A stretch of 64,000 bases of DNA from Hymenobacter sp. (GTDB lineage: Bacteria > Bacteroidota > Bacteroidia > Cytophagales > Hymenobacteraceae): assembly GCA_028288445.1 (NCBI GenBank), contig JAQBNT010000242.1, forward strand, positions 1 to 64,000, written 5' to 3'. Position numbers and translations under genes: made by a program. The notes under the pieces were generated by a model. That model did not search any database, was not told the origin of the DNA, and was given only the letters and a program-made list of their open reading frames with translations. Shown here piece after piece: positions 1,914-55,508 of the stretch (the first letter of the stretch is position 1; every line of letters starts with the position of its first letter).

Positions 1914-3103
1914 TGCGCGTATTCCTTCTTTTTCTAATGTGGTGGGTGCTGGGCGCCCCGGGGCTGGCGGCTGCAACTGCGGCCCCGGCGGCGTTTCTGC
2001 TGCTCGACCCGGCTGCCATGGCCGCCTACAAAACGGCCTACAAAGCCGGTCGCAAAGCCGAAACGACCCAGGTGCAAAAGCTGCTGGCTGATGCCGACCG
2101 CGCCCTCCAGCACGGCCCGTACACTATTACCACCAAGCCCCAGACGCCCCCCAGCGGCGACAAGCACGACTATATCTCGCAGGCCCCGTACTGGTGGCCC
2201 GACCCCACAAAGCCCAATGGCAAGCCTTACATCCAGAAGGACGGCCTGCACAACCCCGAGGCCGAGGCGATGAAGGACAGCGAGAACCTGAGCAAAATGT
2301 GCGCGGCGGTGCAGGCGCTGGGGTTGGCCTACTACTTCGCCGGCGATGAGAAATACGCCGGCCAAGCGGCGAATCTGCTACGCATGTTTTTCCTGAACCC
2401 GGCCACCCGCATGAACCCGAACCTGAACTTTGGGCAGGGCATTCCGGGCATCAACAACGGCCGGAATTTTGGCATCATCGAAACCCGGCACCTGGTGGGA
2501 ATCCCGGAGGCCCTGGCGTTGTTGAACGGCAGCCCCAGCATGGACGCGCCGCTAATGACGGGACTAAATGCGTGGTTCAAGGACTTTACTACCTGGCTCA
2601 CCACCAGCCCCATTGCCCTGCCCGAAGGCGCGGCCAAAAACAACCACGGCACCTTTTACGACACGCAGGTGGTGGATTTTGCCCTTTTCACCGGCAACGA
2701 CGCCCTGGCCAAAAGCATCCTGCAAAAGCAAACCTGGCCCCGCGTAGCGGTGCAACTCGCCCCCGACGGCGCGCAGCCCCTGGAGCTGGCCCGCACTCGC
2801 CCCTGGAACTACACCAGCATGAACCTGCAGGGCTGGGAACGTCTGGCCCTACTGGCCCCGCACGTCGGCCTCGACCTCTGGCACTACACCACCCCCGACG
2901 GCCGCGGCCTGCGCCAGGCCGTGGAATGGTTCCGGCCCTACCTGCTGGGCCAGAAAAAGATGGAGAAAGCCGACGCCGCCGGCACGTCCAACACGCTGGC
3001 CCTTGATGCCTACGAGCAGGCCAGCCGCGCCTATCCAGACCTGAAAGCCGCCGAAGTATTCGCGCAGCATCCTGATTTCAAGCCCGTGCCCTGGGCCTTT
3101 TGA
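1913..3103 (+). CDS. Alginate-lyase-superfamily protein (putative polysaccharide lyase)
   Basis: A 396-residue protein with an N-terminal signal sequence ending near AAATAAPA. The segment APYWWPDPTKPNGKPYIQ and the later NNHGTFYDTQVVDFALF are hallmarks of the alginate_lyase (alpha/alpha toroid) superfamily, where His and Tyr of the NNHG block and neighbouring residues take part in beta-elimination. It probably cleaves a uronate polymer in the periplasm and leaves unsaturated ends for the neighbouring GH88 enzymes. The gene shares one base with the SusD stop and one base with the next start. The actual substrate (glucuronan, alginate or another uronan) cannot be told from sequence. A close paralog is encoded at 13261-14448. 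Confidence 0.82.
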   Translation: MRVFLLFLMWWVLGAPGLAAATAAPAAFLLLDPAAMAAYKTAYKAGRKAETTQVQKLLADADRALQHGPYTITTKPQTPPSGDKHDYISQAPYWWPDPTKPNGKPYIQKDGLHNPEAEAMKDSENLSKMCAAVQALGLAYYFAGDEKYAGQAANLLRMFFLNPATRMNPNLNFGQGIPGINNGRNFGIIETRHLVGIPEALALLNGSPSMDAPLMTGLNAWFKDFTTWLTTSPIALPEGAAKNNHGTFYDTQVVDFALFTGNDALAKSILQKQTWPRVAVQLAPDGAQPLELARTRPWNYTSMNLQGWERLALLAPHVGLDLWHYTTPDGRGLRQAVEWFRPYLLGQKKMEKADAAGTSNTLALDAYEQASRAYPDLKAAEVFAQHPDFKPVPWAF

Positions 3104-4329
3104 TGATGAAGAAAGTCCTTGTCATTACGGCCGCATTGCTCGGGCTGGCGCCGGCACCGCTCCAGGCCCAGAAGCGGCCGCCCGCAAAACTGCCCGCTGC
3201 CCGGCCGCCGGCCGTGCCCGTAGCCGCCGTGGTAGCCCGCGCCGAAGCCCAGTATGCCGCCTACCTGCGCCAATACCCCGACAGCACCCAGCACCCACGC
3301 AGCACGGAGCCCGACGGCCGCCTCATCCGCACCAACTCGCGCAACTGGACCAGCGGCTTTTTCGCGGGCAGCCTTTGGTACCTGGCGCGCCTGAGCAGCC
3401 AGCCGCAGTGGCCGCGCCGCGCCGCTGCGTTCACCGAAACGCTGGATGCCGAAAAGAACGTGACCACGACGCACGACCTGGGTTTTATTCTCAATAACTC
3501 CTACGGGCAGGGCTACGCCGTGACGAAAAACCCGCCGTACCGCGCCGTGCTGCTGCAAGCGGCCGCCTCGTTGGCCAAGCGGTTCAGCCCCACGGTGGGG
3601 GCCATCCGCTCCTGGGACCACCACGCCGAGGTGTGGGCCTACCCCGTCATCGTGGATAACCTGCTGAATCTGGAGCTGCTTTTCGCCGCCACCCGCCTCA
3701 GCGGCGACTCCTCCTACTACCGCATCGCCAAAACCCACGCGGCCACGGATTTGAAGTACCGCTTTCGGGCGGATTTCAGCACCTTCCACGTACTGAATTT
3801 CGACCCGGCCAGTGGCAAGCTACTGACGGCCGTGACGCACCAGGGCTACGCTGACAACTCCTGCTGGGCGCGGGGGCAGGCCTGGGCCATCTACGGCTAC
3901 ACCATGGTGTATCGCGAAACCCGGGACCCAAAATTCCTGCAAGCGGCCATGCACGCCGCCGACTATTTCATTGCGCACACGGCTTCGATTCCGGACCGCA
4001 TTCCCTATTGGGATTTCAACGCCCCCGACATCCCCAACGCCCCGCGGGATGCCTCAGCTGCCGCCGCCGCCGCGTCCGGCCTGCTGGAATTGAGCAAGTA
4101 TGCGCCGAAAAAAAACGACTATTTCAGCGCCGCCACAGCCATTCTGGCCAGCCTCAGCTCGCCGCAATACCTGGCCGCTGCCGGCACCAACAACTACTTC
4201 CTGCTGAAGCACAGCACCGGAAATTTCCCCGCTAAATCAGAAATCGACGTGCCTTTGGTCTACGCCGACTACTACTACCTCGAAGCCCTATGGCGCTACC
4301 AGAACTACGCCCAGCTGACGCTCAACTAG
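3103..4329 (+). CDS. GH88 unsaturated glucuronyl/galacturonyl hydrolase
   Basis: A 408-residue protein. I start it at ATG 3103, which shares a base with the preceding TGA, rather than the TTG at 3100; ATG 3106 is also possible. A signal peptide runs to about LAPAPLQAQ. The GH88 features are TSGFFAGSLWYLARL, THDLGFILNNSYGQGY with the first catalytic Asp, SWDHH with the second Asp, and GYADNSCWARGQAWAIYGY. GH88 enzymes hydrate the 4,5-unsaturated uronic acid left by polysaccharide lyases and release a 5-keto-4-deoxyuronate. This fits its place right after the lyase-like gene. A second GH88 lies at 10552-11751. The last 40 bases overlap the SDR gene. Confidence 0.92.
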   Translation: MMKKVLVITAALLGLAPAPLQAQKRPPAKLPAARPPAVPVAAVVARAEAQYAAYLRQYPDSTQHPRSTEPDGRLIRTNSRNWTSGFFAGSLWYLARLSSQPQWPRRAAAFTETLDAEKNVTTTHDLGFILNNSYGQGYAVTKNPPYRAVLLQAAASLAKRFSPTVGAIRSWDHHAEVWAYPVIVDNLLNLELLFAATRLSGDSSYYRIAKTHAATDLKYRFRADFSTFHVLNFDPASGKLLTAVTHQGYADNSCWARGQAWAIYGYTMVYRETRDPKFLQAAMHAADYFIAHTASIPDRIPYWDFNAPDIPNAPRDASAAAAAASGLLELSKYAPKKNDYFSAATAILASLSSPQYLAAAGTNNYFLLKHSTGNFPAKSEIDVPLVYADYYYLEALWRYQNYAQLTLN

Positions 4330-5289: not shown

Positions 5290-8002
5290 ACGCCATATCC
5301 GCGCCGCATGCACGCTTCTGATACTCCTCGCGTTGCTTCTGCCGCGCCCCGCTGCCGCCCAGTCCCGCGTCGTTCAGTCCATTAATTCCGACTGGCAGTT
5401 CCGTCGCGCCGACGGCCCGGACTACGCCCAAACGGCCGCGCCGGCCGCTGGCTGGGAGAGAATTTCTATCCCCCATACCTGGAACGCGGCCGACGTGACC
5501 GACGACGAGCCCGGCTACTACCGGGGTGTGGGCTGGTATCGCAAAACCCTGCACATCCCCGCCAGCTGGCAAACCCGCCGCGTGTCCCTCTACTTCGAAG
5601 GGGCGGGCCAGGAAGCGGCCGTGTACGTGAACGGGCAACTGGCCGGCCGGCACGCGGGCGGCTATACCGCGTTCAGCTTCCCCATCAGCCAATGGCTGAG
5701 ATTTGATAAGGGGGTTCCAAACGAAGTAGTGGTGAAAGTCGACAACAGGCCCAACGTTGCCCTGCCGCCGCTTTCGGCCGACTTCACTTTCTACGGCGGC
5801 CTGTACCGCGACGTCTACCTGGTGGCCGCTAACCCGGTGCATTTCGACCTCGATAACTACGCCTCCAGCGGCCTGTTCGTGAGCACTCCGGCCGTATCGG
5901 CGGAGGCGGCGCAGGTGCTGGCCCGGGGCACGCTGGTGAACGAATCGACTACTAAGCGACGCCTCACGGTGCTCACCGAACTCACCGACCACGCCGGCAA
6001 TGTGGTGGGCCAGCAGCGTAGCAACCTCACGCTGGCGGCCGGTGAGAAGCGCGAATTTCGGCAGGCCTTCACCAACCTGCGCCGGCCGCACCTGTGGTCA
6101 CCCGACGACCCGTACCTGTACCACATCACGGCCACCGTGCGGGAAGCGGGGCCGGCTGCGGCAGTGCCGCTCGATGCCGTGAGCAGCCCGCTGGGTCTGC
6201 GCTGGTTCCGCTTCGATGCGGCCACGGGCTTTTACCTCAACGGCCAGCCGCTCAAGCTCATTGGCACCAACCGGCACCAGGATTTTCCTGGCCTTGGCAA
6301 TGCCCTGCCCGATGCCCTGGCAGAGCGTGACCTGCTGCTGCTAAAGCAGATGGGCGGCAACTTCCTCCGCGTGTCGCACTACCCACAGGACCCCGCTGTG
6401 CTCGCCGCCTGCGACCGCCTGGGCATCCTGGCGTCGGTCGAAATTCCCGTTGTGAATGCCATCACGGATTCGCCGGCTTTTTTCGAGAACTGCAAAACCA
6501 TGCAGACGGAGATGATTCGGCAGGGCTACAACCACCCCAGCGTCATCATCTGGGCCTACATGAACGAGGTGCTGCTGCGCCTGCCCACCGGCCTTACGAA
6601 GGACAATGACGCCGGCAAAGCTTACCTGGCTCGCGTGGCTGCCCTGGCCCGTGAGCTTGACGCGCTGACCCGCCGCGAGGACCCCACCCGCTACACCATG
6701 CTGGTTAACCACGGCGCGTTCGACCTCTATCAGCAAGCGGGCTTGCTCAATATCCCCCAACTAATAGGCTGGAATCTCTACGCCGGCTGGTACTCGGGCG
6801 GCTTCCAAGGCTTCCCCGACTTCCTAGACCGGCACCGCCGCGAGCTGCCCGACAAGCCCCTGCTGGTAACCGAATTTGGCGCCGATGCCGATGCCCGGCT
6901 GCATTCTTTCAGCCCCCAGCGCTTCGACAAAACCACGGAGTACGCCAACCGCTACCACCAGTTTTACCTCCGGGAGATTCTGGCCCGGCCTTTCGTGGCC
7001 GGGGCCACCGTCTGGAATTTGGCCGAGTTCAACTCGGAAACCCGGCAGGAAGCCGTGCCGCACATCAACAACAAAAGCCTGCTCACGGCCGACCGCCAGC
7101 CCAAAGATGCTTACCTGTTCTACCAGGCCCATTTGCTGAAAGCCCCTTTCGTGCGCATCGGCTCCCGCGCCTGGACCCTGCGGAGCGGTACGGCCGCCAG
7201 CCCCGATTCTTTGTACTGCGCGCAGCCGGTGGAAGTGTACACCAACCAGTCCGCCGCCGAGTTGCAACTCAACGGCCAGTCGCTGGGTACGCACCCGGCC
7301 GAGTTTGGTATCGTGCGCTTCCGCGTGCCCTTTGCCAATGGCCTGAACCAGCTGACGGCCCGCGCCGGCACCGCCCCTGCCGACCACACGGATATTCAGT
7401 TCCAGCTGCTGTCCCCCAACCTGTCTTCCGATAAACTGCCCTTCTCCGAGCTCAACGTGAGCCTGGGCGACCAGCGCTACTTCACCGATGCCCGGCTAAA
7501 CCAGGTCTGGCTGCCCGAGCAGGCTTACGTGCCCGGCGGCTGGGGCTACGTGGGCGGCCACCCGTTCGCGCTGCCCGGCACCGGCCGTCTGCCCTACGGC
7601 TCCGACCGCAACATCCTCGGCACCGAGTACGATGCCGTGTACGAAACCCAGCGCGTGGGCCTCAGCCAGTTTCGCCTCGATGTGCCCGCCGGCCGGTACG
7701 AAGTCACCCTGCACTTTGCCGAGCTCGAAGCCGTGCCCGCTGCCGAGCAGCTGGCCTACAACCTGGCCAAAGCTGATGCCGCTTCGGCTGCGCCGGCCAA
7801 AGCAGCCCGCCGCTTCGATGTCTGGCTGAATGGCTTGCTGTTACTGCCAGATATGGGGCCGGACAACAACCTGCCGCCGCTCCAGGCCGTGAGCGTTAAG
7901 CTACCGGTAAGCGTGCGAATGGGGGAGGGGATTATACTCGATTTTAAAGCGGCCGTCGGTGAGACGGTGCTGAATGGAATTCAGGTAAAACGGCTGGATT
8001 GA
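5264..8002 (+). CDS. GH2 glycosidase (beta-galactosidase/beta-glucuronidase type) with C-terminal malectin-like domain
   Basis: The frame is open from 5111, but ATG 5264 gives a compact N-terminus before the hydrophobic signal segment (CTLLILLALLLPRPAAAQ) and is preceded by AGGAG. The resulting protein has 912 residues. An N-terminal sugar-binding jelly roll (WERISIPHTWNAADVTD, GYYRGVGWYRKTL) is followed by an Ig-like domain and a TIM barrel with likely acid/base E435 (YMNEVLLR) and nucleophile E537 (LVTEFGADAD). The last ~170 residues (VPAGRYEVTLHFAELEA) look like a malectin-type carbohydrate-binding module. It is probably periplasmic and removes beta-linked galactose or uronate from the PUL 1 substrate. 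The start is the least certain point because it lies in a REP-like repeat. Confidence 0.88.
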   Translation: MVSSRTESPRHIRAACTLLILLALLLPRPAAAQSRVVQSINSDWQFRRADGPDYAQTAAPAAGWERISIPHTWNAADVTDDEPGYYRGVGWYRKTLHIPASWQTRRVSLYFEGAGQEAAVYVNGQLAGRHAGGYTAFSFPISQWLRFDKGVPNEVVVKVDNRPNVALPPLSADFTFYGGLYRDVYLVAANPVHFDLDNYASSGLFVSTPAVSAEAAQVLARGTLVNESTTKRRLTVLTELTDHAGNVVGQQRSNLTLAAGEKREFRQAFTNLRRPHLWSPDDPYLYHITATVREAGPAAAVPLDAVSSPLGLRWFRFDAATGFYLNGQPLKLIGTNRHQDFPGLGNALPDALAERDLLLLKQMGGNFLRVSHYPQDPAVLAACDRLGILASVEIPVVNAITDSPAFFENCKTMQTEMIRQGYNHPSVIIWAYMNEVLLRLPTGLTKDNDAGKAYLARVAALARELDALTRREDPTRYTMLVNHGAFDLYQQAGLLNIPQLIGWNLYAGWYSGGFQGFPDFLDRHRRELPDKPLLVTEFGADADARLHSFSPQRFDKTTEYANRYHQFYLREILARPFVAGATVWNLAEFNSETRQEAVPHINNKSLLTADRQPKDAYLFYQAHLLKAPFVRIGSRAWTLRSGTAASPDSLYCAQPVEVYTNQSAAELQLNGQSLGTHPAEFGIVRFRVPFANGLNQLTARAGTAPADHTDIQFQLLSPNLSSDKLPFSELNVSLGDQRYFTDARLNQVWLPEQAYVPGGWGYVGGHPFALPGTGRLPYGSDRNILGTEYDAVYETQRVGLSQFRLDVPAGRYEVTLHFAELEAVPAAEQLAYNLAKADAASAAPAKAARRFDVWLNGLLLLPDMGPDNNLPPLQAVSVKLPVSVRMGEGIILDFKAAVGETVLNGIQVKRLD

Positions 8003-8024
8003 TGACAGTGAATAGAAAATATAG

Positions 8025-8060
8025 AACGGTCATGCTTCGACTACGCTCAGCATGACCGTT
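8025..8060. terminator. Hairpin with GTCATGCT/AGCATGAC core between GH2 genes
   Basis: Perfect 12-base arms at 8025-8036 and 8049-8060, with a 12-base loop, followed by a short T-rich stretch to 8062. It lies 23 bases after the first GH2 stop and ends 15 bases before the second GH2 start. It could attenuate or terminate transcription, or stabilise the upstream mRNA. Hairpins with the same core occur at 13170-13218 and 40431-40464, so it may be a dispersed element. Confidence 0.55.
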
Positions 8061-8074
8061 TTGGGCATTCCGAT

Positions 8075-10549
8075 ATGATGAAAAAACTCTTTCCATTTCG
8101 CCTTTCGCTTCTGCTGCTCTTCAGCCTCAGCAGCCGCTTCGAATCCTTCGCGCAGCAAGGCACCCGCCTGAACACCGGCTGGGAATTCGTGCGCCAGGAC
8201 TTAGGCGGCATCTGGGAAGCCGTCCGGCCCGTGGTGGCCGGCAACCCCGAAAGTGTGCCGCTTTGGGAGCCCGTGGCTCTGCCGCACTGCTTCAACGCCC
8301 GCGATGCCGTGGACCCCGACGTGAACTACTACCAGGGTCCCGGCTGGTACCGTACCCAGCTCAGCATCGCCAACCCCTATCCCAACGGACGCACCCTGCT
8401 GCATTTCGAAGGCGCGGGTCAGAAAACCCGCGTTTTTATCTATACCACGGAAGTCGGCAGTCACGTCGGCGGTTACGACGAATGGACCGTGGACATCACC
8501 CAGGCCGTGGCTGATTTTCAGAAAACCGACGTTTTCAAAACCCAGTTCAAGGGCAAAATCCCGCTTTCCATCCGCTGCGACAATTCCCGCGACCTGGAGA
8601 TGATGCCCTCCGACTTGTCGGACTTCAACATCTATGGCGGCCTTTACCGCTACCTCAACCTCAGGTACGAGCCGGCCGTTTCGATGGAGCGCGTGGCGGC
8701 CAAAGCGGCAGTAGACAAGGCAGGTAAAATTGGCTCACTCGTGCTCAAAGGCGTTTTTCGCGAGCCGCTGGCTGATGGCCCCGCCACGGTAAACGTGCGC
8801 TTGCTGGACCCGCACGGTAAGGTCGTAGCGAAATCCCAGGCCTCCATTGCTGTCAAAGCCGGTGAGCTGGACTTCGGAAATTTCAAGCTTAAAACACCGC
8901 GTCTGTGGTCCCCCGAGCACCCGGAGCTGTACACGGTGGTGGTGACGGTGGGCACCGGCCCCGAGCAATTTGAGCACCGCGAAAAAGTCGGCTTCCGCCA
9001 CATCGAATTCGTGGAGCATGGCCCGTTTCTGCTGAACGGGCAGCGCCTGCTGCTGCGCGGTACCCACCGCCACGAAGACCACGCCGGCGTGGCCGCTGCC
9101 ATGACCGAAGCCCAGATTCGGCAGGAAATGCGGCTGATGAAAACCATGGGCGTCAACTTCATTCGCTTGGGCCACTACCAGCAGTCACGCATTGTGCTGA
9201 ATCTGTGCGACTCTTTAGGAATAACGGTGTGGGAGGAAATTCCGTGGTGCCGCGGTGGGCTAGGCGGCGAAATCTACCAGGCGCAGGGCCACCGGATGCT
9301 CACCAATATGGTGCAGCAGCACTTCAACCACCCGGCCATTCTCATTTGGGGGCTGGGCAACGAGAACGACTGGCCCGGCGACTTCCCGGAGTTCGATAAG
9401 GAGAAAATTCGGACTTACATGAAGTCGCTCAACGACCTGGCGCACCAGCTCGACCCCGCCCGCTACACCGCCATCCGGCGCTGCGATTTCTGCAAGGACA
9501 TTCCCGACGTGTATTCGCCATCCATCTGGGCCGGTTGGTACCGAGGCATTTACACCGACTACAAGGAAGCGAGTGAGCAGGAATTCAAGTCCGTGAAACG
9601 CTTCCTGCATGTGGAGTGGGGCGGCGACAGCCACGCCGGCCGCCACTCCGAAAACCCCGACAACGCGCTGGCCAAAATCACGGCCGGCAAGGGAGCCGAC
9701 GAGCGCGCCGGCGATGCCTCCCTCTTCGGCGGCAGCGCCCGCGTCTCGAAGGACGGCGACTGGAGCGAAAGCTACCTCTGCAACCTCGTCGACTGGCACC
9801 TCAAGGAGCAGGAAACCATGCCCTGGCTCAGCGGCGCAGCTTATTGGCCGTTTAAGGATTTTTCCACGCCCGTGCGCCCCGACAACCCCATTCCCTACCT
9901 AAACCAGAAGGGCGTGGTAGAGCGCGACCTCACCCCCAAAGAAGCCTTTTTCGTGTTCCAATCCTACTGGACCACCGCGCCGATGGTGCACATCTACGGC
10001 CACTCCTGGCCCGTGCGCTGGGGCGAAGCCGGCGAAAAAAAGATGGTGAAAGTGTATTCGAATGCCGCTGAGGTTGAGCTGTTTGTGAACGGCCAAAGCC
10101 AAGGGATTAAAAAGCGCAACAGTCAGGATTTTCCCGCCGCCGGCCTGCGCTGGCTGGTGGCCTTGCATAAGGGCGAAAACACCTTCCGCGCCGTGGCCCG
10201 CCAGGGCAACACCACCGTGCAGGACGAAATAACCCAGCGCTACCAAACCGCCAAATGGGACAAGCCTGCCAAGCTGACCCTGGAGAAAACCGGAGAAGCC
10301 AACGGCATCGCCACCATCGAAGTGAAGCTGTTGGATGCCCACGGGGTCCAGTGCCTTGACGCGGCCAACTGGGTGCGGTTTTCGCTGGCCGGCGGCGGGA
10401 TTCTGCTGGATGACCTGGGCACCAGCAGCGGTTCGCGCAAAGTGCAGGCCTACAACGGCCGCGCCATTATCCGGGTGCGCACCAACGGATTGCGCAGCGT
10501 GGCCAGCGTGGCTTCGGAAGGATTGGAAGCGGCTTTTTTGAATCTTTAA
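8075..10549 (+). CDS. GH2 family glycosidase
   Basis: An 824-residue protein with signal peptide MMKKLFPFRLSLLLLFSLSSR... ending near FAQQ. The sugar-binding domain (VALPHCFNARDAVDPD, YYQGPGWYRTQL) is followed by an Ig-like domain, a TIM barrel and C-terminal beta-sandwich domains (MVKVYSNAAEVELFVNGQSQG resembles the DUF4982-type domain). The likely acid/base is E430 in WGLGNENDW and the likely nucleophile is E514 in HVEWGGDS. GH2 enzymes retain configuration and release terminal beta-galactose, glucuronate or mannose; which one cannot be told here. It differs from the upstream GH2 in lacking the malectin-like tail. Its stop is two bases before the next start, so the genes are probably coupled. 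Confidence 0.9.
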   Translation: MMKKLFPFRLSLLLLFSLSSRFESFAQQGTRLNTGWEFVRQDLGGIWEAVRPVVAGNPESVPLWEPVALPHCFNARDAVDPDVNYYQGPGWYRTQLSIANPYPNGRTLLHFEGAGQKTRVFIYTTEVGSHVGGYDEWTVDITQAVADFQKTDVFKTQFKGKIPLSIRCDNSRDLEMMPSDLSDFNIYGGLYRYLNLRYEPAVSMERVAAKAAVDKAGKIGSLVLKGVFREPLADGPATVNVRLLDPHGKVVAKSQASIAVKAGELDFGNFKLKTPRLWSPEHPELYTVVVTVGTGPEQFEHREKVGFRHIEFVEHGPFLLNGQRLLLRGTHRHEDHAGVAAAMTEAQIRQEMRLMKTMGVNFIRLGHYQQSRIVLNLCDSLGITVWEEIPWCRGGLGGEIYQAQGHRMLTNMVQQHFNHPAILIWGLGNENDWPGDFPEFDKEKIRTYMKSLNDLAHQLDPARYTAIRRCDFCKDIPDVYSPSIWAGWYRGIYTDYKEASEQEFKSVKRFLHVEWGGDSHAGRHSENPDNALAKITAGKGADERAGDASLFGGSARVSKDGDWSESYLCNLVDWHLKEQETMPWLSGAAYWPFKDFSTPVRPDNPIPYLNQKGVVERDLTPKEAFFVFQSYWTTAPMVHIYGHSWPVRWGEAGEKKMVKVYSNAAEVELFVNGQSQGIKKRNSQDFPAAGLRWLVALHKGENTFRAVARQGNTTVQDEITQRYQTAKWDKPAKLTLEKTGEANGIATIEVKLLDAHGVQCLDAANWVRFSLAGGGILLDDLGTSSGSRKVQAYNGRAIIRVRTNGLRSVASVASEGLEAAFLNL

Positions 10550-45817: not shown

Positions 45818-48800
45818 ATGATTAAACGCTTTACATCTAAATGCACCAACCGGCTAAGCCAGTGTATGGTGTTATTCCTGCTACTGTTGGCCGGCTCAGC
45901 CTGGGCCGAATCACCGGCTGCCGCCGGGCCCGGCGGCGGTACCACGCCTTCCCTTAGCCAGGCGCTCAATTCCGACGGCACCCTGCGGGCCGGCGCAAGC
46001 GGCTCGTTCGATGCCCGCGCTTTTACGATGGGCACTGCGCCCGATGGCCGGCCGGTGTTTCGGCCGGCCGGGGTCAAGCGTATCCAGGGGGCCGGCGATG
46101 TCAACTGGCAGGACGGCTTCGGCATTCGCGGGGCCAATTCCTCGGTGCTGGCCGTGGTGCAGGTGGGCACCGATACTTATGTGGCCGGAAGCTTCACTAT
46201 AGTGGGCAACGTGGTGGCCAACCGCGTGGCCCGCTGGAACGGCACTACCTGGGTCAGCCTCGGCACTGGCACGGCCAACGGCGTGGACGGCACCGTGAAT
46301 GCGCTGGCCGTGGACGGCACCGGCAATGTGTACGTAGGCGGCAGCTTTACCAACGCCGGCGGTAACCCCGCCAGCCGCGTGGCCCGCTGGAACGGCACGG
46401 CCTGGAGCGCCCTGGGCAGCGGTACCATCGCCACCGACGGCACGGCCAACGGCGTGGGCAGCACGGTGAATGCGCTGGCCGTGGACGGCACCGGCATCGT
46501 GTATGCGGGCGGCGGCTTTACCACGGCCGGCGGCCTCACGGCCAACCGCGTGGCCCGCTGGAACGGCACGGCCTGGAGCGCCCTGGGCAGCGGCACCACC
46601 GCCACCGACGGCACGGCCAACGGCGTGGGCAGCACCGTGAGCGCGCTGGCCGTGGGCGGCACCGGCATCGTGTACGCGGGCGGCGGCTTTACCACGGCCG
46701 GGGGCACGGCCGCCCGCTACGTGGCCCGCTGGAACGGCACGACCTGGAGCGCCCTGGGCAGCGGCACCACTGCCACCGACGGCACGGCCAACGGCGTGGG
46801 CAGTACGGTGAATGCGCTGGCTGTTTCCGGCACCAGCGTCTACGCAGGCGGGTTATTCACCACGGCCGGGGGCACGGCCGCCCGCTACGTGGCCCGCTGG
46901 AACGGCACGGCCTGGAGCGCCCTGGGCAGCGGCACCACCGCCACCGACGGCACCGCCAACGGCGTGGCCTCCCTGGTTTTCGCCCTCAGCGTGTCCGGTT
47001 CCAACGTGTACGTGGGCGGCCTGTTCACCACGGCCGGGGGCCTGACGGCCAACCGCGTGGCCCGCTGGAACGGCAGCACCTGGAGCAGCCTCGGCACGGG
47101 CACCACCAACGGCGTGAACAGCACCGTGCAAGCCCTGGCCCTGAACGGCACCGACGTGCTGGTAGGCGGTCTGTTTGCCACGGCCGGCGGCACCACTGTA
47201 GGCCGTCTGGCCCGCTGGGACGGTTCCGCCTGGAACGCGCTGGGCGCTGCCGCCAACGGCGTGTTCGGCTCGGTTACCAACGACATCCGGGCGGTGGTTG
47301 TGAGCGGGACCGACGTGTACGTGGGCGGCCCCTTTACCCAGGTGGGTGGGGTGGCGGCCAACTACGTGGCCAAGTGGAACGGCACGGCCTGGAGCAGCCT
47401 CGGCACCGGCACCGCGAATGGCACCGATGACGTGGTGGAGTCGCTGGCCATCAGCGGCACCACGCTCTACGCGGGAGGACGCTTTCTGAATGCCGGCGGC
47501 AACCCCGCCAGCCACGTAGCCAAATGGAATGGTACGGCCTGGAGCAGCCTCGGCACCGGCATCGCCGACGGGGCCAACATCTTTGTAACCGCGCTGGCCG
47601 TGGACGGCACCGCCCTGTACGTGGGTGGACAGTTTGCCCAGGCCGGCAGCGTAACGACCACCAACATTGCCCGCTGGACCGGCAGCGCCTGGCAGGCGCT
47701 GGGCAGCGGAGCCAACGAAGGCGTGAACGCCGCAGTGAACGCCCTGGCCCTGCGTGGCACCGACCTCTACTTGGGCGGCGGCTTCAGCATGGCCGGCTCG
47801 GTGGCAGCTAATCGGGTGGCGCGCTGGAACGGCAGCACCTGGAGTAGCCTCGGCACCGGCGCGGCCAACGGCATTGACCTGAGCGGCACCGTCGATGCGC
47901 TGGTGCTGAACAGTACCGATGTGTACGTGGGCGGTACCTTCACGGCGGCCGGCGGCAACGCGGCCAATAACGTGGCCCGCTGGAACGGCACGGCCTGGAG
48001 CAGCCTCGGCACCGGCACCGACGGCCGGGTGCAGGCCCTGACCCTGAACGGCCCCGACCTGTACGCGGGCGGCGAGTTTGTCCAGGCCGGCGGCGCGGCG
48101 GCCAGCCGCATTGCCAAGTGGAACGGCGGCACCTGGAGTGTGCTCGGCACCGGCCTCAACAATGCTGTGTATGCGCTGGGGGCCATCACCGGCGGCAACG
48201 TATACGCCGGCGGCCCTTTCACCGCCGTCGGCGATGGCAGCAAGGTCAGCTACGCCTTCGGGGTGTACGAGCCGGTCAGCACAGCTTTCACCGTCACCGG
48301 TTTCAGTCCGGCGAGCGCGGCAGCAGGGGCGGTGGTCACCATCACCGGCACCAACCTGACCGGGGCCACGGGGGTGCGCTTCGGCACCGGGGCCCTGGCC
48401 CTGCGCTTCACCGTAGTCGATGCCAGCACCATCACGGCAGTGGTGCCGGTGGCGGCCGCGTCAGGACCTATCACCGTGAGCAACGCCACGGCGGTGGCCA
48501 GCAGTGCGGCCTCGTTCACCTACGCGCCCATGCTTGATGCCCAGGTCAGCCTGAGCCCGATTGGCCCGCTCAGCGTCTGTTCGCCCCAAACCCTGACCGC
48601 CACGGGCACCCGGCCCGGTTTCGCCCCCGGCGGCACCGGTTTCAACAACCCGGTGCGAGTGGTGACCGTGCAAACCGACGGCAAGGTGCTGGCCGGTGGC
48701 TCCTTTACCCAATTCAATGGCGCTTCGCAGCCCTACCTGGTCCGGCTCAATGCGAATGGAACTATTGACAACACGTTGAGTGCGAGTGCGGCTGGAGTGA

Positions 48801-51800
48801 ATGGTGACGTTTACGCTCTGGTGGCGCAGCCCGACGGCAAAACGCTGGTGGGCGGCGCTTTCGGCGGGAGTAGCGGCAGGCTGCTGCGGCTGAATGCAAA
48901 CGGCAGCCTGGATGCCTCGTTCACCATCGGCAGTGGCTTTGATGGCACGGTGTGGGCACTGGCCTTGCAGCCCGACGGCAAAATACTGGTGGGGGGCACC
49001 TTCAGTACCCTCAACGGCGTGACCGTGCCCACGGGACTGGTGCGGCTGAATGCTGACGGCACCCGTGACGCCACCTTCAACCCCGGCGGCCAGGGTGTGG
49101 ACGGCGGCGTCCTCGCCCTGGCCTTACAGGCTAACGGCAGGATTGTGGCCGGTGGCGAGTTCGGCACCTACAATAACGTGGCGGCGGCCAACTTGCTGCG
49201 CATGAACGCCAACGGCAGCCGCGACCTGACCTTCGACAGCAGCCCGGCGGGCATCGCCAACAAGGTGTGGGCCGTGGCCGTGCAGCCCGACGGCAAAATA
49301 CTGGCTGCTGGCAGCTTCGACAACAATGCCCTGGCCCCCGACCATCTCGTGCGCCTGACCACTACCGGAGGGCTCGACAACACCTTTAACCTCAACGGCG
49401 CCGGCTTCGATAACGTGGTTTGGAGCGTGGGCGTGCTGGCCGATGGCAAAATCCTGGTCGGCACCCCATCCAATAGCTACAACGGGGCCGCTGTTTCGGG
49501 CGGACTGATGCGGCTGACCGCCGCCGGGCAGTACGACAACAGCTTCAATGCCGGCGGCACCGGCTTTGGCACCGCCGACGTGTTTGGCATTGCCCTGCAA
49601 GCCGATGGCAAGGTGCTGGCGGGCGGCTCTTTCCTGAGCTACAACGGCGTGGCCTCGACTCCCGATTACCTGGCCCGCGTACAGGCCGACGGCAGCATGA
49701 ATGCCACCAGCACCGCCCTGACCGGGGCCACGTTCACCTTCGCGCCCGGCGGCAGCACCACCAATCCGCTCACGACGAGTACGGCCGGCTCCTACTCAGC
49801 CACGGCCACGGTGGGCAGCAGCACATCGGAACCATCCAATACGGTGGTGCTGACCCCGTGTGCGGTCCCCACCCTGACCTCGTTCACGCCCACCAGCGGT
49901 CCGGCCACGACCAGCGTTCAACTCACTGGCACCAACTTTACCGGGGCTACCGCCGTGGCCTTCAACGGCACGGCGGCACCCGGCTTCGTGGTCAATTCCA
50001 GTACCCAGATTACGGTAAGCGTGCCGGCTGGCGCCAGCACGGGCACTATTTCAGTGACCACGCCCGGCGGCACGGCCACCAGCACCGGCATCTTTACAGT
50101 GCCTACGGGCACGGCCCCGGTAGTGGTGAGCGTGGGGGTACCGGCCAGCCAGAATTATAAACTGGGCCAACTCCTGGCCTTCACGGTCGTGTTCGATGCG
50201 CCGGTAACGGTGAGCGGCAGCCCCACGCTGAACCTGGTGATGGGGAGCACTACCGTGCCGGCCGCCCTGACCGGCGGCAGCGGCACCACCACCCTGCAAT
50301 TCAGCCGCACGGTGGACGGTACCGACCTGGACCTGGATGGCATTGCCCTCGTTGCTGCCTCGGCGCTGAGCGGCGGCAGCATCGTGAGCAGCGGCGGCGT
50401 GGCCGTTAACCGGACCCTGAACGGCGTGCCGTCGACGAGTGGCATCATCGTAGATGGCATTCAGCCCTTCGTGGCTGCTTCGACCCGCCTGCTGCCCGCT
50501 ACCGCGAGTGCCACCGGCCCGGACGTGACTTTTCGGGTGGTGTTCAACGAGGCCGTGACCGGCGTGGCCGCTGCCACTTTTGCTGTGGTGAGCGCGGGCG
50601 GCGTGGGCGGCACGGTGAGTGGCGTGGTGCCGGTAGCGGCTTCGGGCGGCACCACCTACGACGTGACCCTGACCGGCATCAACGGCGACGGCTCGGTGCG
50701 GCTGACGGCCCCCGGCACCGGTCCCTTGGTGCAGGATGCCTTCACGAATGCCTACCTGGCCAGTGCCTCAGCCGCCGGCGAAACCTATACCATCGTTCCC
50801 GGCAACTTGCTCGTGGCCACGCCCCAGAACGTAACCGGCGTGTACGCCAACGTGACGGTGGCCGCGAACGGTGTGGCCACCCTCACCGGCAACCTCACGG
50901 TGACCAGTGTGGTGACCGTGAGTTCGGGCGGCTCGTTCTTGTTCCGGCAGGGCAGCGGTGCCTTTCGTCGGGGCACGGCCGGCGACCCTTGCAACGTGGT
51001 GAGCGGCACCGGCAGCTTTGTGGTGGAGCCCGGCGCGAAGCTGGGCATCTGCGACCCCAACGGCATCAGCCTGAGCGGAGCCACCGGGGCTGTGCAAGTA
51101 ACGGGCTCCCGCAGCTTTTCCAGCCAGGCCCACTACATATACGCCGGCGACGTGGCCCAGACCACTGGTGATGGCCTGCCCGCCACCGTGGCCGGCCTCA
51201 CCGTCGGCAATGAGGCCGGCGTCACACTGACCAACGCCGCAATAAGCATTTCGGGGTTTCTGAACCTGACCAACGGCGACCTGACGGTGCCGGCGGCCAA
51301 AACACTGACCATCAACAGCGGGGCTGTCGCTACTACCGGCACTCGCGTCATCAGCGGAGCCGGCTCTTTTGTGCTTAGCAGCGGGGGGCTTCTCAAGACC
51401 GGCAACGGGGCCGGCATCAGCGCACTTGGTACGGCCACGGGCGCGGTACAAACCACGACGGCCCGCTCCTTCGGGGCCGGTGCCAGCTACGATTACAACG
51501 GTACGGCTGCCCAAACCACCGGTACCGGCCTACCGGGCACCATCGCCGGGCTGACCGTTGGCAACGCGGCCGGCGTAACGCTGACCAATGACCTGACCAC
51601 CACCGGCGTGCTGACCATGAGCAGCGGCGTGCTGACCACCGGCACCCGAACCATAACGCTGGGTAGCACGGGCACACTTTTGGAACAAGAAGCCAGCTAC
51701 GTGCTGGGCAAGGTAGTGGCGACCCGCCCGCTGGCCCCCGGCGCAGCCGAAGCTTTCGGTGGGCTGGGCCTGACGCTGGCCCCGGCCACCGGCTCCACCG

Positions 51801-52901: not shown

Positions 52902-53576
52902 TTACTTTTTGGGCGACATCATCTGGCGCAGCTGTTTTTTCATAGCTTTCTGAATCTGCGCCTCGTGGTCGGCCCGGAAGCGGTTCAGGATGTTGTGGAT
53001 GATGTCCGGCGCGGAAGCCCCGTTGCCGAGCAGAAAGCCCAGATTGGTGAAGAACTGCTGGTGGTCGGCGGTGATGCGCAGGGTCGTCCCCTTCTTTTCG
53101 CTGGAGGGCACAAACAGCCGGTTCAGGTCCAACTCGCTGGTTTCCGCCACAACGGGTGCCTCCGGCAAGGTTTCCTCTTCCTCCAAGTCCGCATCGTCGT
53201 TATTATCCTCGGTGGGCTTTGGAGTTGCGGTCGGGGTTGCCGCACTGGGAGTGGCAGGCTCCTCCCCTCCCCTCTTCGCCGGAGCCGGAGCTTTCGGGCT
53301 GGTTCTGACGACGGCTGGCGCAGCCGATGGCTGGGCCTCGTCCTTCTTTCCCTCGGGTTCCCGACTTGCCGGTTGCGGAGCCGCCGGTGCGGGCGCGATG
53401 GCGGCTGGCGCTGGCGGTGCTGGTACTTCAACGGGCGTGGGAGCAGCTGCCGGCGCCTCCGGCCGCGGGGCCTCGCCCATCAGGCTGAAGGCGGCTACCC
53501 CTGAGGTGAGCGCCGCTAATTCGCGCTGGCGCCGGGCGGCGGCGTCTTCTTTCGATTCTGGTGTTTTCTTGGCCAT
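52902..53576 (-). CDS. Putative partition adaptor: disordered protein with RHH-like (DUF3408-like) C-terminus
   Basis: A 224-residue protein. Residues ~36-150 are a Pro/Ala-rich, probably disordered linker with an acidic patch (DNNDDADLEEEE). The C-terminal ~60 residues predict as beta strand TTLRITA (164-170), helix ADHQQFFTNLGFLLG and helix ASAPDIIHNILNRFRADH, the order of a ribbon-helix-helix DNA-binding fold; the wording recalls DUF3408 proteins found next to ParA in Bacteroidota mobile elements. It starts 12 bases after the parA stop. In type Ib partition systems a small RHH protein downstream of parA binds the centromere and stimulates ParA, so this is its probable role (inference). The RHH call is from pattern only. 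Confidence 0.65.
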   Translation of the reverse strand: MAKKTPESKEDAAARRQRELAALTSGVAAFSLMGEAPRPEAPAAAPTPVEVPAPPAPAAIAPAPAAPQPASREPEGKKDEAQPSAAPAVVRTSPKAPAPAKRGGEEPATPSAATPTATPKPTEDNNDDADLEEEETLPEAPVVAETSELDLNRLFVPSSEKKGTTLRITADHQQFFTNLGFLLGNGASAPDIIHNILNRFRADHEAQIQKAMKKQLRQMMSPKK

Positions 53577-53588
53577 GGTGGGAAGCGG

Positions 53589-54398
53589 TTATTTGGCGTT
53601 GTCGTCGAGGGTGGCGGCGGGCGTGGGCTGTTCAAACTCCACCGGGGCGAATTCCAGGCGCTTGCCCGAGGGCGTCACGGTGCCCTGACCGACTACCAGC
53701 GTCAGAATCTCGGTAATCAGGCTGCCCAGCCCGAGCTTGCCCAGCTCCTTTTCCGGCATAGGAAACATCGTGGAGCGCTTGTCCTTGATACTGACCAGGG
53801 ATTCCACGCGGCTGTTGAGCAACGGGTAGCCCTTCTCGCGGAAGAGGTCGGCGGTTTTGGTATAGACCGTGCGCTTCTCGGCCTTGATGAACTTGTTCCA
53901 GAAGGCGTAAAAGCCCACCAGGTTGGATTCGGACCGCTGGGCCTGGGTGAAGTTGCCCAGGATGTGCATGTAGGACATCGTTGAGGCAATGGTGCCCATG
54001 TCCGGCTCCATGGGCAGGAAGATGTACTCCACCCGCTCGAGCAGCTCGCTCAGGCCCGAGACGTTTACCGTGCCGGGGGTATCGACCAGGATGAAGTCAT
54101 ATTCTTTCTCGGCCAGCGTATCGATGGCGTCCACCGCCTTTTCCATGCTGGAGATGGCAATGGGGTACGGGGTCACCCCCTGCTTGATGAGCCGCTCCTG
54201 GAACGCTACGTCGGACTGCAGCAGCAGCTGCTCGTGGTTGCGGTAGGCGTGCAGGGTATTCTGTGGGTAGTCGCAATCGAGCATGGCCACTTTGTAGCCG
54301 TAGAGGTAGCAGAGCGCCGAGGCAACATGCGTCCCGATGGTCGACTTGCCTGCTCCTCCTTTCTGAGTTGCGAAGGCAATTACACGGGTTTTTTTCAT
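53589..54398 (-). CDS. parA: ParA-family partition ATPase
   Basis: A 269-residue deviant-Walker ATPase without an N-terminal helix-turn-helix, the size of type Ib ParA/Soj-like proteins. Walker A is KGGAGKST at residues 13-20 with the signature first lysine K13; Walker A' is VAMLDCDYPQ (about 37-46); Walker B is DFILVDTPGTV (about 100). Such ATPases bind DNA non-specifically as ATP dimers and move plasmid or chromosome cargo. The gene is followed by an RHH-like protein gene and preceded by an octamer array (54445-54876), which together give the layout of a partition cassette. The helix-turn-helix-free form suggests the partner protein, not ParA, binds the array. Confidence 0.92.
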   Translation of the reverse strand: MKKTRVIAFATQKGGAGKSTIGTHVASALCYLYGYKVAMLDCDYPQNTLHAYRNHEQLLLQSDVAFQERLIKQGVTPYPIAISSMEKAVDAIDTLAEKEYDFILVDTPGTVNVSGLSELLERVEYIFLPMEPDMGTIASTMSYMHILGNFTQAQRSESNLVGFYAFWNKFIKAEKRTVYTKTADLFREKGYPLLNSRVESLVSIKDKRSTMFPMPEKELGKLGLGSLITEILTLVVGQGTVTPSGKRLEFAPVEFEQPTPAATLDDNAK

Positions 54399-54444
54399 AG
54401 AGGGAAAAGGGGTTGCAGACGATGGGTTCTAAATTTTCCGTATT

Positions 54445-54876
54445 GCTTCTTCGCTTCAATGAGGCGATGCTTCACTGAAGCAAAGAAGCAATGCTTCGGA
54501 GTTATGTTGATTCCTTGAGGCTTCGAAGTTACAAAGCATTGCTTCAAAGATGCATTGAAGCAATGATATTATGCTTCAATGAAGCGTTAATAATTAGAAG
54601 CGCTGAAGTAATGCTTTGCTGCATCAATGCTTCACTACTTCATTGCATCATTATGTCAATGAAGTAGTGAAGCATTGATGCAGCGAAGCAGTTATTATAT
54701 AATGTATTGATTAAACGCGATTCGCGATGAAGCACCGAAGCAGTGAAGCAATCTTAGCACGCGTTTGGGGTATCCATTCATCAGGCCGCTGCCCATAGAT
54801 ATATTGAGAAACTATAGGCGTAACCTATGCTTCAGTGAAGTTCCGAAGTATTGAAGCGGTGAACCGCTGAAGCAGC
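54445..54876. repeat. 8-bp-phased GAAGC/GCTTC array, candidate parS-like centromere
   Basis: Upstream of parA, 31 octamers in unbroken register from 54445 to 54692 begin with GAAGC or GCTTC. Fourteen are exact (7 in each orientation), 13 have one mismatch and 4 do not fit. The last three bases of the octamers favour ANT. After a 36-base AT-rich gap come three octamers at 54729, 54737 and 54745 (half a unit out of phase), then a gap, then six more at 54829-54876 back in the first phase, three of them exact. In all 21 exact pentamers occur in about 430 bases, where about one is expected. It is probably the binding array for the RHH-like protein. Confidence 0.8.
54613..54689. repeat. 33-bp inverted repeat within the octamer array
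   Basis: Arms 54613-54645 and 54657-54689 are inverted copies with a single mismatch, around an 11-base loop (catcattatgt). Both arms consist of octamers of the array in register, so it could form a cruciform or mark a symmetric centre for a bound complex. Confidence 0.8.
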
Positions 54877-54917
54877 ACTTAGACTAGGATGTATTAACAG
54901 TAGGGATTATTTTGGGC

Positions 54918-55508
54918 ATGGACTATTTGTTGACGGATGCGCAATGGGGCGTATTGCGCCGCTGCTGCCGGGTCGCGAAGGCACGAAAGGCGGCCGGGGG
55001 CAGGACAACCGCCGCTTCGTGGAGGCGGTGCTGTGGCTGGCGCGCAACTGGTGCCGGTGGCGGGCCTTGCCAGCGGAATGGGGCAACTGGCACACGACGT
55101 ACACGCGCTTCCAGCGCTAGATGGCCTCGGGCGTGTGGGCCCGGGTGCTGGCGGCCGTGCAACAGGACGACGCGCTGCACACGCTGCTGGTGGACTCGAC
55201 CACTGTGCGGGCGCACCAGCACGCGAGCGGGCCGCGCAAAAAACGGGCCGCAAGCCCTCCTGGGGCGCAACCGCGGTAGGCTAACCAGCAAGCTGCACGT
55301 GGTGGCCAATGCCCGGGGCCGATTCCTGCGCGGCAGCCTGACGGCGGGTCAGCGCCACGACGCCCCACAAGCGCTGCCCCTGCTCGACGGCCTGGCGCCA
55401 GCTTATCTCATTGCCAACCGCGGCTACGATTCTGACCCGCTCGTGGCCGCCCGTGGCACGCAAGCTGTGATTCTGCCCCGGCGCAAACGCCGCACCCCGC
55501 GGGCCTAG
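54918..55508 (+). pseudogene. IS5-family transposase relic
   Basis: The N-terminus DYLLTDAQWGVLRR is that of IS5-group transposases. The rest is recoverable only by changing frame: NWHTTYTRFQR with an in-frame stop after it (near 55120), then LLVDSTTVRAHQHASG holding the first catalytic Asp (near 55195), then SKLHVVANARGRFL and IANRGYDSD (second Asp) in a third frame. The frame ends at 55508 without the C-terminal YxxRHxxE block. At least two frameshifts, one stop and a truncation make it dead. It lies 42 bases after the last octamer of the partition array. Confidence 0.85.

Follow-up and report, generated by a model that had tools for sequence, protein, structure and literature searches.

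A ParA gene, an RHH-like partner, and an 8-bp-phased array in Hymenobacter: a probable type Ib-like partition module, usually beside mobilization and transfer genes

The described systems closest to the locus reported here come from plasmid partition and from DNA transfer. In ParF/ParG/parH of TP228, a ParA without a helix-turn-helix (HTH) domain is paired with a ribbon-helix-helix (RHH) partner, and the site has short boxes with AT-rich spacers (PMC7308502). In delta/omega/parS of pSM19035, RHH dimers occupy contiguous nonpalindromic units in both orientations, and at least four contiguous units are required for full stimulation of the ATPase, as described in PMC9499535. ParCAB of the Myxococcus plasmid pMF1 is described as a type Ib-like system with autorepression, iterons like AGATGTCT, and a bound octamer motif (PMC3235114). 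On the transfer side, the comparison of CTnDOT with four B. thetaiotaomicron elements in PMC1976400 gives identities of 40 to 63% for TraA and 20 to 38% for TraB; the lower values for TraB would be expected if TraB changes specificity. In the account of PMC4949242, the ParA-like VirC1 acts with VirC2 at T-DNA borders of Ti plasmids, with binding near a site cut by a relaxase, and the Par proteins of R1 raise transfer. Gonococcal ParA and ParB are described as cooperating with a relaxase in a type IV secretion system (T4SS) (PMC8716806).

The locus described here lies in the window (the whole 64,000-nucleotide [nt] stretch of Hymenobacter DNA that was analyzed) and consists of a parA gene, a partner gene, and an upstream array of 5-bp words on an 8-bp step (Table 1). 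It resembles ParF/ParG/parH in its HTH-less ParA and RHH-like partner and differs from it in the 5-bp word, the longer arrays, the usual position at a junction of mobilization (mob) and transfer (tra) genes, and the partner, which has 224 amino acids (aa) and a long linker, in contrast to the 76 aa of ParG. The likeness to delta/omega/parS lies in its contiguous units in both orientations (PMC9499535), whereas the step differs: a heptad array on a Macrococcoides plasmid, taken from a region picked for its signal, repeats at lags 7, 14, and 21, and the module repeats at 8, 16, and 24. The pMF1 system, compared by its description, differs in having few units near the operon, others scattered on the plasmid, and an extra gene, parC. 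TraA/TraB (DUF3408) of CTnDOT-type elements have the same gene order by the mob and tra genes, a homologous partner, and 8-bp periodicity upstream of traA-type genes; they differ in that the five partners of our main family that were scanned score under the DUF3408 cutoff and in that some of the distant arrays have further repeats at 4-bp multiples. The 8-bp step has a precedent among RHH partition arrays: on an IncX1 plasmid of E. coli (not TP228), a 294-bp region upstream of parFG repeats at 8 and 16 bp (z of 3.9 and 4.2, respectively). The sequence-only reading, made before any database search, had called the cassette type Ib-like and without a described counterpart. The first part agrees with our sequence comparisons; the second has to be given up in view of the parFG region and the octamer-motif iterons reported for pMF1 (PMC3235114), and the relationship to DUF3408 and the mob/tra position had been missed. 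As far as the open-licence literature was searched, the site family, the switching of its word, the relationship of the partner to DUF3408/TraB, and the placement at a mob/tra junction appear to be new.

Table 1. Positions of the module's features in the window (a dot marks features to which no strand is assigned)
Feature	Position	Strand	Basis or remark
Candidate centromere-binding protein, 224 aa, distant DUF3408/TraB relative	52902..53576	-	12 bp past parA stop codon
RHH-like C-terminal domain of partner, beta-alpha-alpha order	52905..53156	-	AF2 single-sequence model; hhalign with ParG
Strand segment KKGTTLRIT, residues 161-169, candidate DNA-reading strand	53070..53096	-	Varies between word classes
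Pro/Ala-rich linker of partner, probably disordered, approximate boundaries	53157..53474	-	P+A fraction 0.48
N-terminal peptide of partner, residues 1-34, candidate ParA contact	53475..53576	-	N-termini of 29 loci
parA, ParA/MipZ-like ATPase, 269 aa, without N-terminal HTH	53589..54398	-	Pfam/NCBIfam matches, alignment
Main array, candidate centromere	54445..54692	.	31 octamers, one 8-bp phase, both orientations in same 5-bp frame
Word triplet, exact, 8-bp spacing (54729, 54737, 54745)	54729..54749	.	4 bp off main phase
Six distal octamers, main phase	54829..54876	.	6/6 within at most one mismatch

Recounting the main array gave 27 of 31 octamers that start with GAAGC or GCTTC at no more than one mismatch, the exceptions being those at 54501, 54565, 54589, and 54653; the sequence-only reading had arrived at the same count, and all 14 of the exact starts that it listed in one 8-bp phase were right. 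Exact words occur 21 times between 54399 and 54893, and 17 of the 21 have one phase in common, a number reached by 0 of 100,000 random placements. The best run of 31 octamers in this region scores 27; over 1,000 dinucleotide-preserving shuffles, the corresponding figure averages 4.0 and never exceeds 9. Together, the shuffles and the placements rule out a chance origin of the array. Along the 136,008-bp contig, the signal at lags 8 and 16 peaks at the array, 10.6 standard deviations (SD) above the mean of 3,393 windows, and the best contig window clear of it reaches 4.5 SD. The six distal octamers, which like the triplet were absent from the list in the sequence-only reading, are probably the distal end of the array, which totals 31 + 3 + 6 octamers across 432 bp. 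Inside it, 54612-54645 and 54657-54690 form a 34-nt inverted repeat (97% complementary, arms 11 nt apart), probably a recent inverted duplication. Just past the array, in the direction in which mobC lies in most relatives, is an IS5-like transposase reading frame (54912-55508); we looked upstream of the array for a clean IS boundary and found none. At 46268-47107 of the window, about five tandem repeats of 171 bp are found within a reading frame of 2,277 aa.

The ATPase has ParA/MipZ/AAA_31 matches in Pfam and NCBIfam (in Pfam, MipZ at 2.7e-14 and AAA_31 at 6.6e-12), and its relatives by sequence in the Protein Data Bank (PDB) include MipZ, MinD, and ParF. Its deviant Walker A motif, QKGGAGKST, starts at residue 12, which leaves no space upstream for an HTH domain, in agreement with the earlier description of this protein. 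Two type Ib features are thus present: an ATPase that combines a deviant Walker A motif with the lack of an N-terminal HTH, and short direct and inverted repeats arrayed upstream of its gene. The VirC1 family (PF07015) gives a weak, partial match (E = 0.014; 15.2 bits, under the cutoff of 24), so that this ParA falls outside the family as delimited by that cutoff; our comparison with VirC1/VirC2-overdrive was made on the VirC1 side, and in the open-licence literature we found no paper joining VirC1, VirC2, overdrive, and ribbon-helix-helix.

The partner is, as judged by hhalign alone, a distant relative of DUF3408/TraB: its family profile aligns with a DUF3408/sister set over 67 columns (probability, 95.8; E = 7e-9). 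Direct scans with DUF3408 (PF11888; cutoff, 29.9 bits) covered the window partner whole and four other main-family partners as C-terminal pieces; the window partner had no match at an E value of 1, nor had the pieces from classes B and D (see below for the word classes), and those from classes C and E scored 19.8 and 12.6 bits, both under the cutoff. The same family profile aligns with the ParG RHH over 44 columns (probability, 52; E = 1.4e-4), and DUF3408 itself aligns poorly with ParG (probability, 1.6). A single-sequence AF2 model of the C terminus has a strand (25 to 28) followed by two helices (30 to 44 and 49 to 79) at low confidence (pLDDT, 67), and adding six distant partners in a second model brought no improvement (pLDDT, 64). 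PDB sequence searches with two partner profiles returned no RHH match, and fold searches with Foldseek and VIA-align, started from the weak model, gave no RHH match and nothing useful. From the ParG alignment and the model, an RHH fold appears likely. Of the earlier description of a disordered linker and an RHH-like C terminus, the linker agrees with its composition and the fold is retained as likely. Partner relatives were absent from a scan of viral_contigs. Across 29 loci, the N termini are alike within classes A and B and differ in C, D, and E. The window partner carries Arg and Lys there, and in an arginine-finger check on the unaligned N termini, we saw no position kept across classes. 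We suggest this peptide as a candidate contact with ParA.

A ParA search of 149 genomes gave matches at an E value of 1e-10 in 63 and defined a main family of 29 loci (the window and 28 others, with about 58% ParA identity or more), all from Hymenobacter. In PLSDB, likewise, Hymenobacter plasmids give the best ParA matches, and all 11 records matching the partner are from this genus. The partner lies downstream of parA in all 29 loci. Phased arrays beside orthologous parA genes, which the sequence-only reading had proposed to look for, are present in each: the best lag in the range of 4 to 24 is 8, 16, or 24, and the 8-bp score exceeds that of all 516 random stretches from relatives' loci (maximum, 0.084) and all 71 upstream regions of other, more distant ParAs (maximum, 0.123). 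Neither control is a perfect match: coding sequence makes up most of the random stretches, and among the 71 ParAs, which span many phyla, a few may be TraA-like. Two loci lacking upstream sequence (L092 and L130) were left out of the controls. The top-scoring control (L134, from Methylobacterium trifolii; 0.123, upstream of parA) might be another such array. In one main-family locus (L060, contig G005:C2), the partner gene appears to carry a frameshift in the part encoding the RHH-like domain, and a traG match close by is split; either decay or misassembly may have affected this copy.

Comparison of the window with its close relative L034 separates what is kept from what is not. The two ParAs are 97% identical and the partner C termini 96% (dN/dS, 0.011/0.25 for parA and 0.016/0.41 for the partner C terminus), and yet little of the two arrays can be aligned (the best piece found by blastn is 67% over 110 bp). 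What is conserved between them is the word and its phase, not the array sequence. These data bear on the reading of the array as functionless low-complexity or satellite DNA. Slippage can create repeats, and the array contains the 34-nt inverted duplication. Against a satellite, word and step are kept through such turnover, the arrays stand above the controls in 29 of 29 loci, and the words sort with a protein strand as described below; we rejected satellite DNA as unlikely on the first two grounds and give this reading hardly any weight.

The word itself changes within the family. Across the 29 loci, it is GAAGC in 10, GCAAC in 12 (class B, where TGCAA is more frequent than GCAAC), GTAAC in 3, GAGGC in 2, and GATAC in 2; these cores, and hence the summary GNNRC for the close family, were picked after looking. 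Among neighboring words at most 40 bp apart, same-orientation pairs keep phase in 117/126 (GAAGC), 63/64 (GCAAC), 26/26 (GTAAC), 27/28 (GAGGC), and 18/20 (GATAC) cases, and pairs in opposite orientations are in phase in 53/57, 14/25, 10/11, 1/1, and 13/13, respectively. The corresponding strand segments of the partner are KK[GT]TTLRIT, KKTFQ[IV]RIT, KKT[EW]VVRIT, KKVFTMRLT, and KKTVMFRIT. Judged from the alignments, the word differs by clade in step with a short strand segment of the partner while the 8-bp step stays constant. In the ParA tree, a single branch separates each word class from the rest (for class B, this branch is weakly supported, 78/75), and five word changes are required, sister group included; this implies few independent word switches, and since the classes follow the clades, the match of word and strand rests on about five states. 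In one genome (G056), two members coexist, one with GAGGC and the other with GATAC.

Outside the main family, weaker arrays are present in a sister ParA family (36 to 42% identity). Scoring covered 8 of the 13 places at 35 to 43% identity: seven exceeded the best random stretch, the exception being L072 (0.057), and six exceeded the best control. A further sister-type locus (L029), outside the eight scored, gave no clear 8-bp signal on first look, and another ParA is also present on two of three sister-family contigs examined. A more distant TraA-type set was assembled from Spirosoma, Rufibacter, Bacteroides, Chryseobacterium, Sphingobacterium, and others, together with a draw across the phylum (395 genomes, with matches in 18). 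Of its 32 loci, several of which are near-copies of one element (e.g., L160 and L165) and so not independent, 31 scored above all random stretches (L179, at 0.069, did not) and 23 above the best control, with nine below. A different Hymenobacter ParA (L184), scored in the same run of 33 and kept out of the 32, had no 8-bp signal (0.009). In this set too, words tend to sort with the partner strand, in a descriptive comparison made without statistics: RxGKVVYIR with TAAAAGC-like words in seven loci, an RDGKTVYIR-like strand with TACA in four (two of them weak), and KTRQCVYIS with CGGA in two. The Rufibacter tibetensis plasmid 1 (L161) has a long run of GTTAA/ATTAA at 8 bp before parA (2823-3994); there the array is strong, the mobilization set is different, and the partner does not look like DUF3408.

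In 26 of the 29 main loci, we observed a mobC gene on one side of the array and parA on the other, the exceptions being the window, L044 (at a contig end), and L058. On the far side of the array, genes for a relaxase and a coupling protein accompany mobC in most of the 26; TraE, TraF, and TraG follow the partner in many main loci. The parA of most relatives thus occupies the place of traA in CTnDOT-type elements, an arrangement seen also in Bacteroides plasmids, and similar arrays precede traA-type genes in chromosomal elements of single-contig genomes. The window departs from this placement between mob and tra genes, its contig having no match for the mob and tra proteins used as queries. In several relatives (L068, L070, L072, and others), a long inverted repeat with CATGGCTTGCT was seen by eye near mobC, between it and the array, and is possibly an oriT; the window has no exact match to this word and one with a single mismatch (at 7829; chance expectation, 1.9).

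Because the unit stands at the junction of mobilization and transfer genes in most relatives, a role in conjugation is a real rival to partition. On this reading, TraA and TraB would bind the array near oriT and bring the relaxosome to the transfer channel in the manner of VirC1/VirC2-overdrive, with partition secondary or absent; VirC1 with VirC2 at T-DNA borders and the R1 Par proteins (PMC4949242) and the gonococcal T4SS ParA/ParB with a relaxase (PMC8716806) are described precedents, and the TraA/TraB position in CTnDOT-type elements, Bacteroides plasmids, and chromosomal elements fits it. Against it, the module is kept where transfer genes were not detected. One 316-kb contig (G064:C3) has it as the sole ParA, with matches to TraG and relaxase only on another contig, apart from a relaxase-like partial match (34%) of its own; another genome (G075) has no TraG match and a relaxase remnant with a stop. 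In G021 and in the window's own genome (G000), genome-wide searches found no match to TraG (E = 1e-20) or relaxase (E = 1e-15), an absence that weighs little there, as the former locus is on a 10-kb contig and the latter genome is in 311 contigs and 93% complete; the window may also have diverged from L034 before it lost its transfer genes. In addition, the module's ParA is the sole AAA_31 match on its own contig in 12 of 13 genomes searched, and none of the 13 module contigs has a ParB_N match; AAA_31 finds the module family weakly (E values down to 2e-5), and so other divergent ParAs may have been missed. Weighing both sides, we judge a mainly conjugative role unlikely, although partition and conjugative roles may both hold.

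The window contig itself carries a second, different ParA (C241:106539-107057), which may be another partition gene of the replicon. A Rep-like match (30% identity; about 108324-108974) lies some 1.3 kb from this ParA, so that the module may be redundant there. The same Rep-like match bears on whether the array consists of replication-origin iterons, as short repeated words on a plasmid might suggest. It is about 54 kb away, and on plasmid NZ_CP095047, the annotated replication initiator (7852-8790) is about 40 kb from parA (48704-49513); with the initiator tens of kilobases off on both replicons examined, we regard iterons as very improbable. It could also be that the array is mainly an operator, the partner coating its own promoter region and only regulating the par-tra operon, since it stands immediately upstream of parA and type Ib partners are also described as repressors (PMC5016525). 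However, the array's 31 + 3 + 6 octamers seem more than this would need, and array lengths in relatives are of similar order; we consider a purely regulatory array improbable.

We therefore return to the module as a type Ib-like ParA-RHH (ParABS) plasmid partition system, which we regard, from sequence comparison, as fairly probable. What argues for partition is the recurrence of an HTH-less ParA, an RHH-like partner, and an 8-bp-phased array together in 29 of 29 loci, with the module's ParA usually alone of its kind on the contig and retained where transfer genes were not found. Against it stand the position mostly next to mobC and often before tra genes and the chromosomal elements with similar arrays, for which a need for partition is not obvious. 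In the mechanism that we propose, partner dimers would sit side by side, one per octamer, and as both orientations lie mostly in one frame, the twofold axis of each would fall near the middle of the 5-bp word. The partner would coat the array, link the plasmid to nucleoid-borne ParA-ATP, and stimulate its ATPase, so that plasmid copies would be separated at cell division; the same binding would probably repress the parA promoter. Were words and strand residues to switch jointly on a fixed step, related plasmids would become compatible.

More tentatively, as something that we find quite possible though short of probable, TraA-TraB (DUF3408) may be a segregation-and-transfer module found throughout the Bacteroidota, in which an RHH domain of TraB reads 8-bp-phased arrays at the mob/tra junction, a beta-strand sets the word, and the module acts on the replicating or excised element in two ways, by partitioning it and by placing it for conjugation. 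This would give DUF3408/TraB, together with the ParA-like TraA, a proposed function; both head the transfer genes in plasmids and conjugative elements of Bacteroidota, those of gut Bacteroides included, and it makes a case for asking if one DNA site serves both partition and conjugation. An array with constant spacing and a changing word fits lock-and-key swaps made several times in evolution. If this is true, the clades would be natural orthogonal pairs of protein and word from which a code of RHH recognition could be read. The five natural strand-word pairs on a fixed 8-bp grid make changes of specificity in an RHH centromere-binding protein directly testable by strand swaps.
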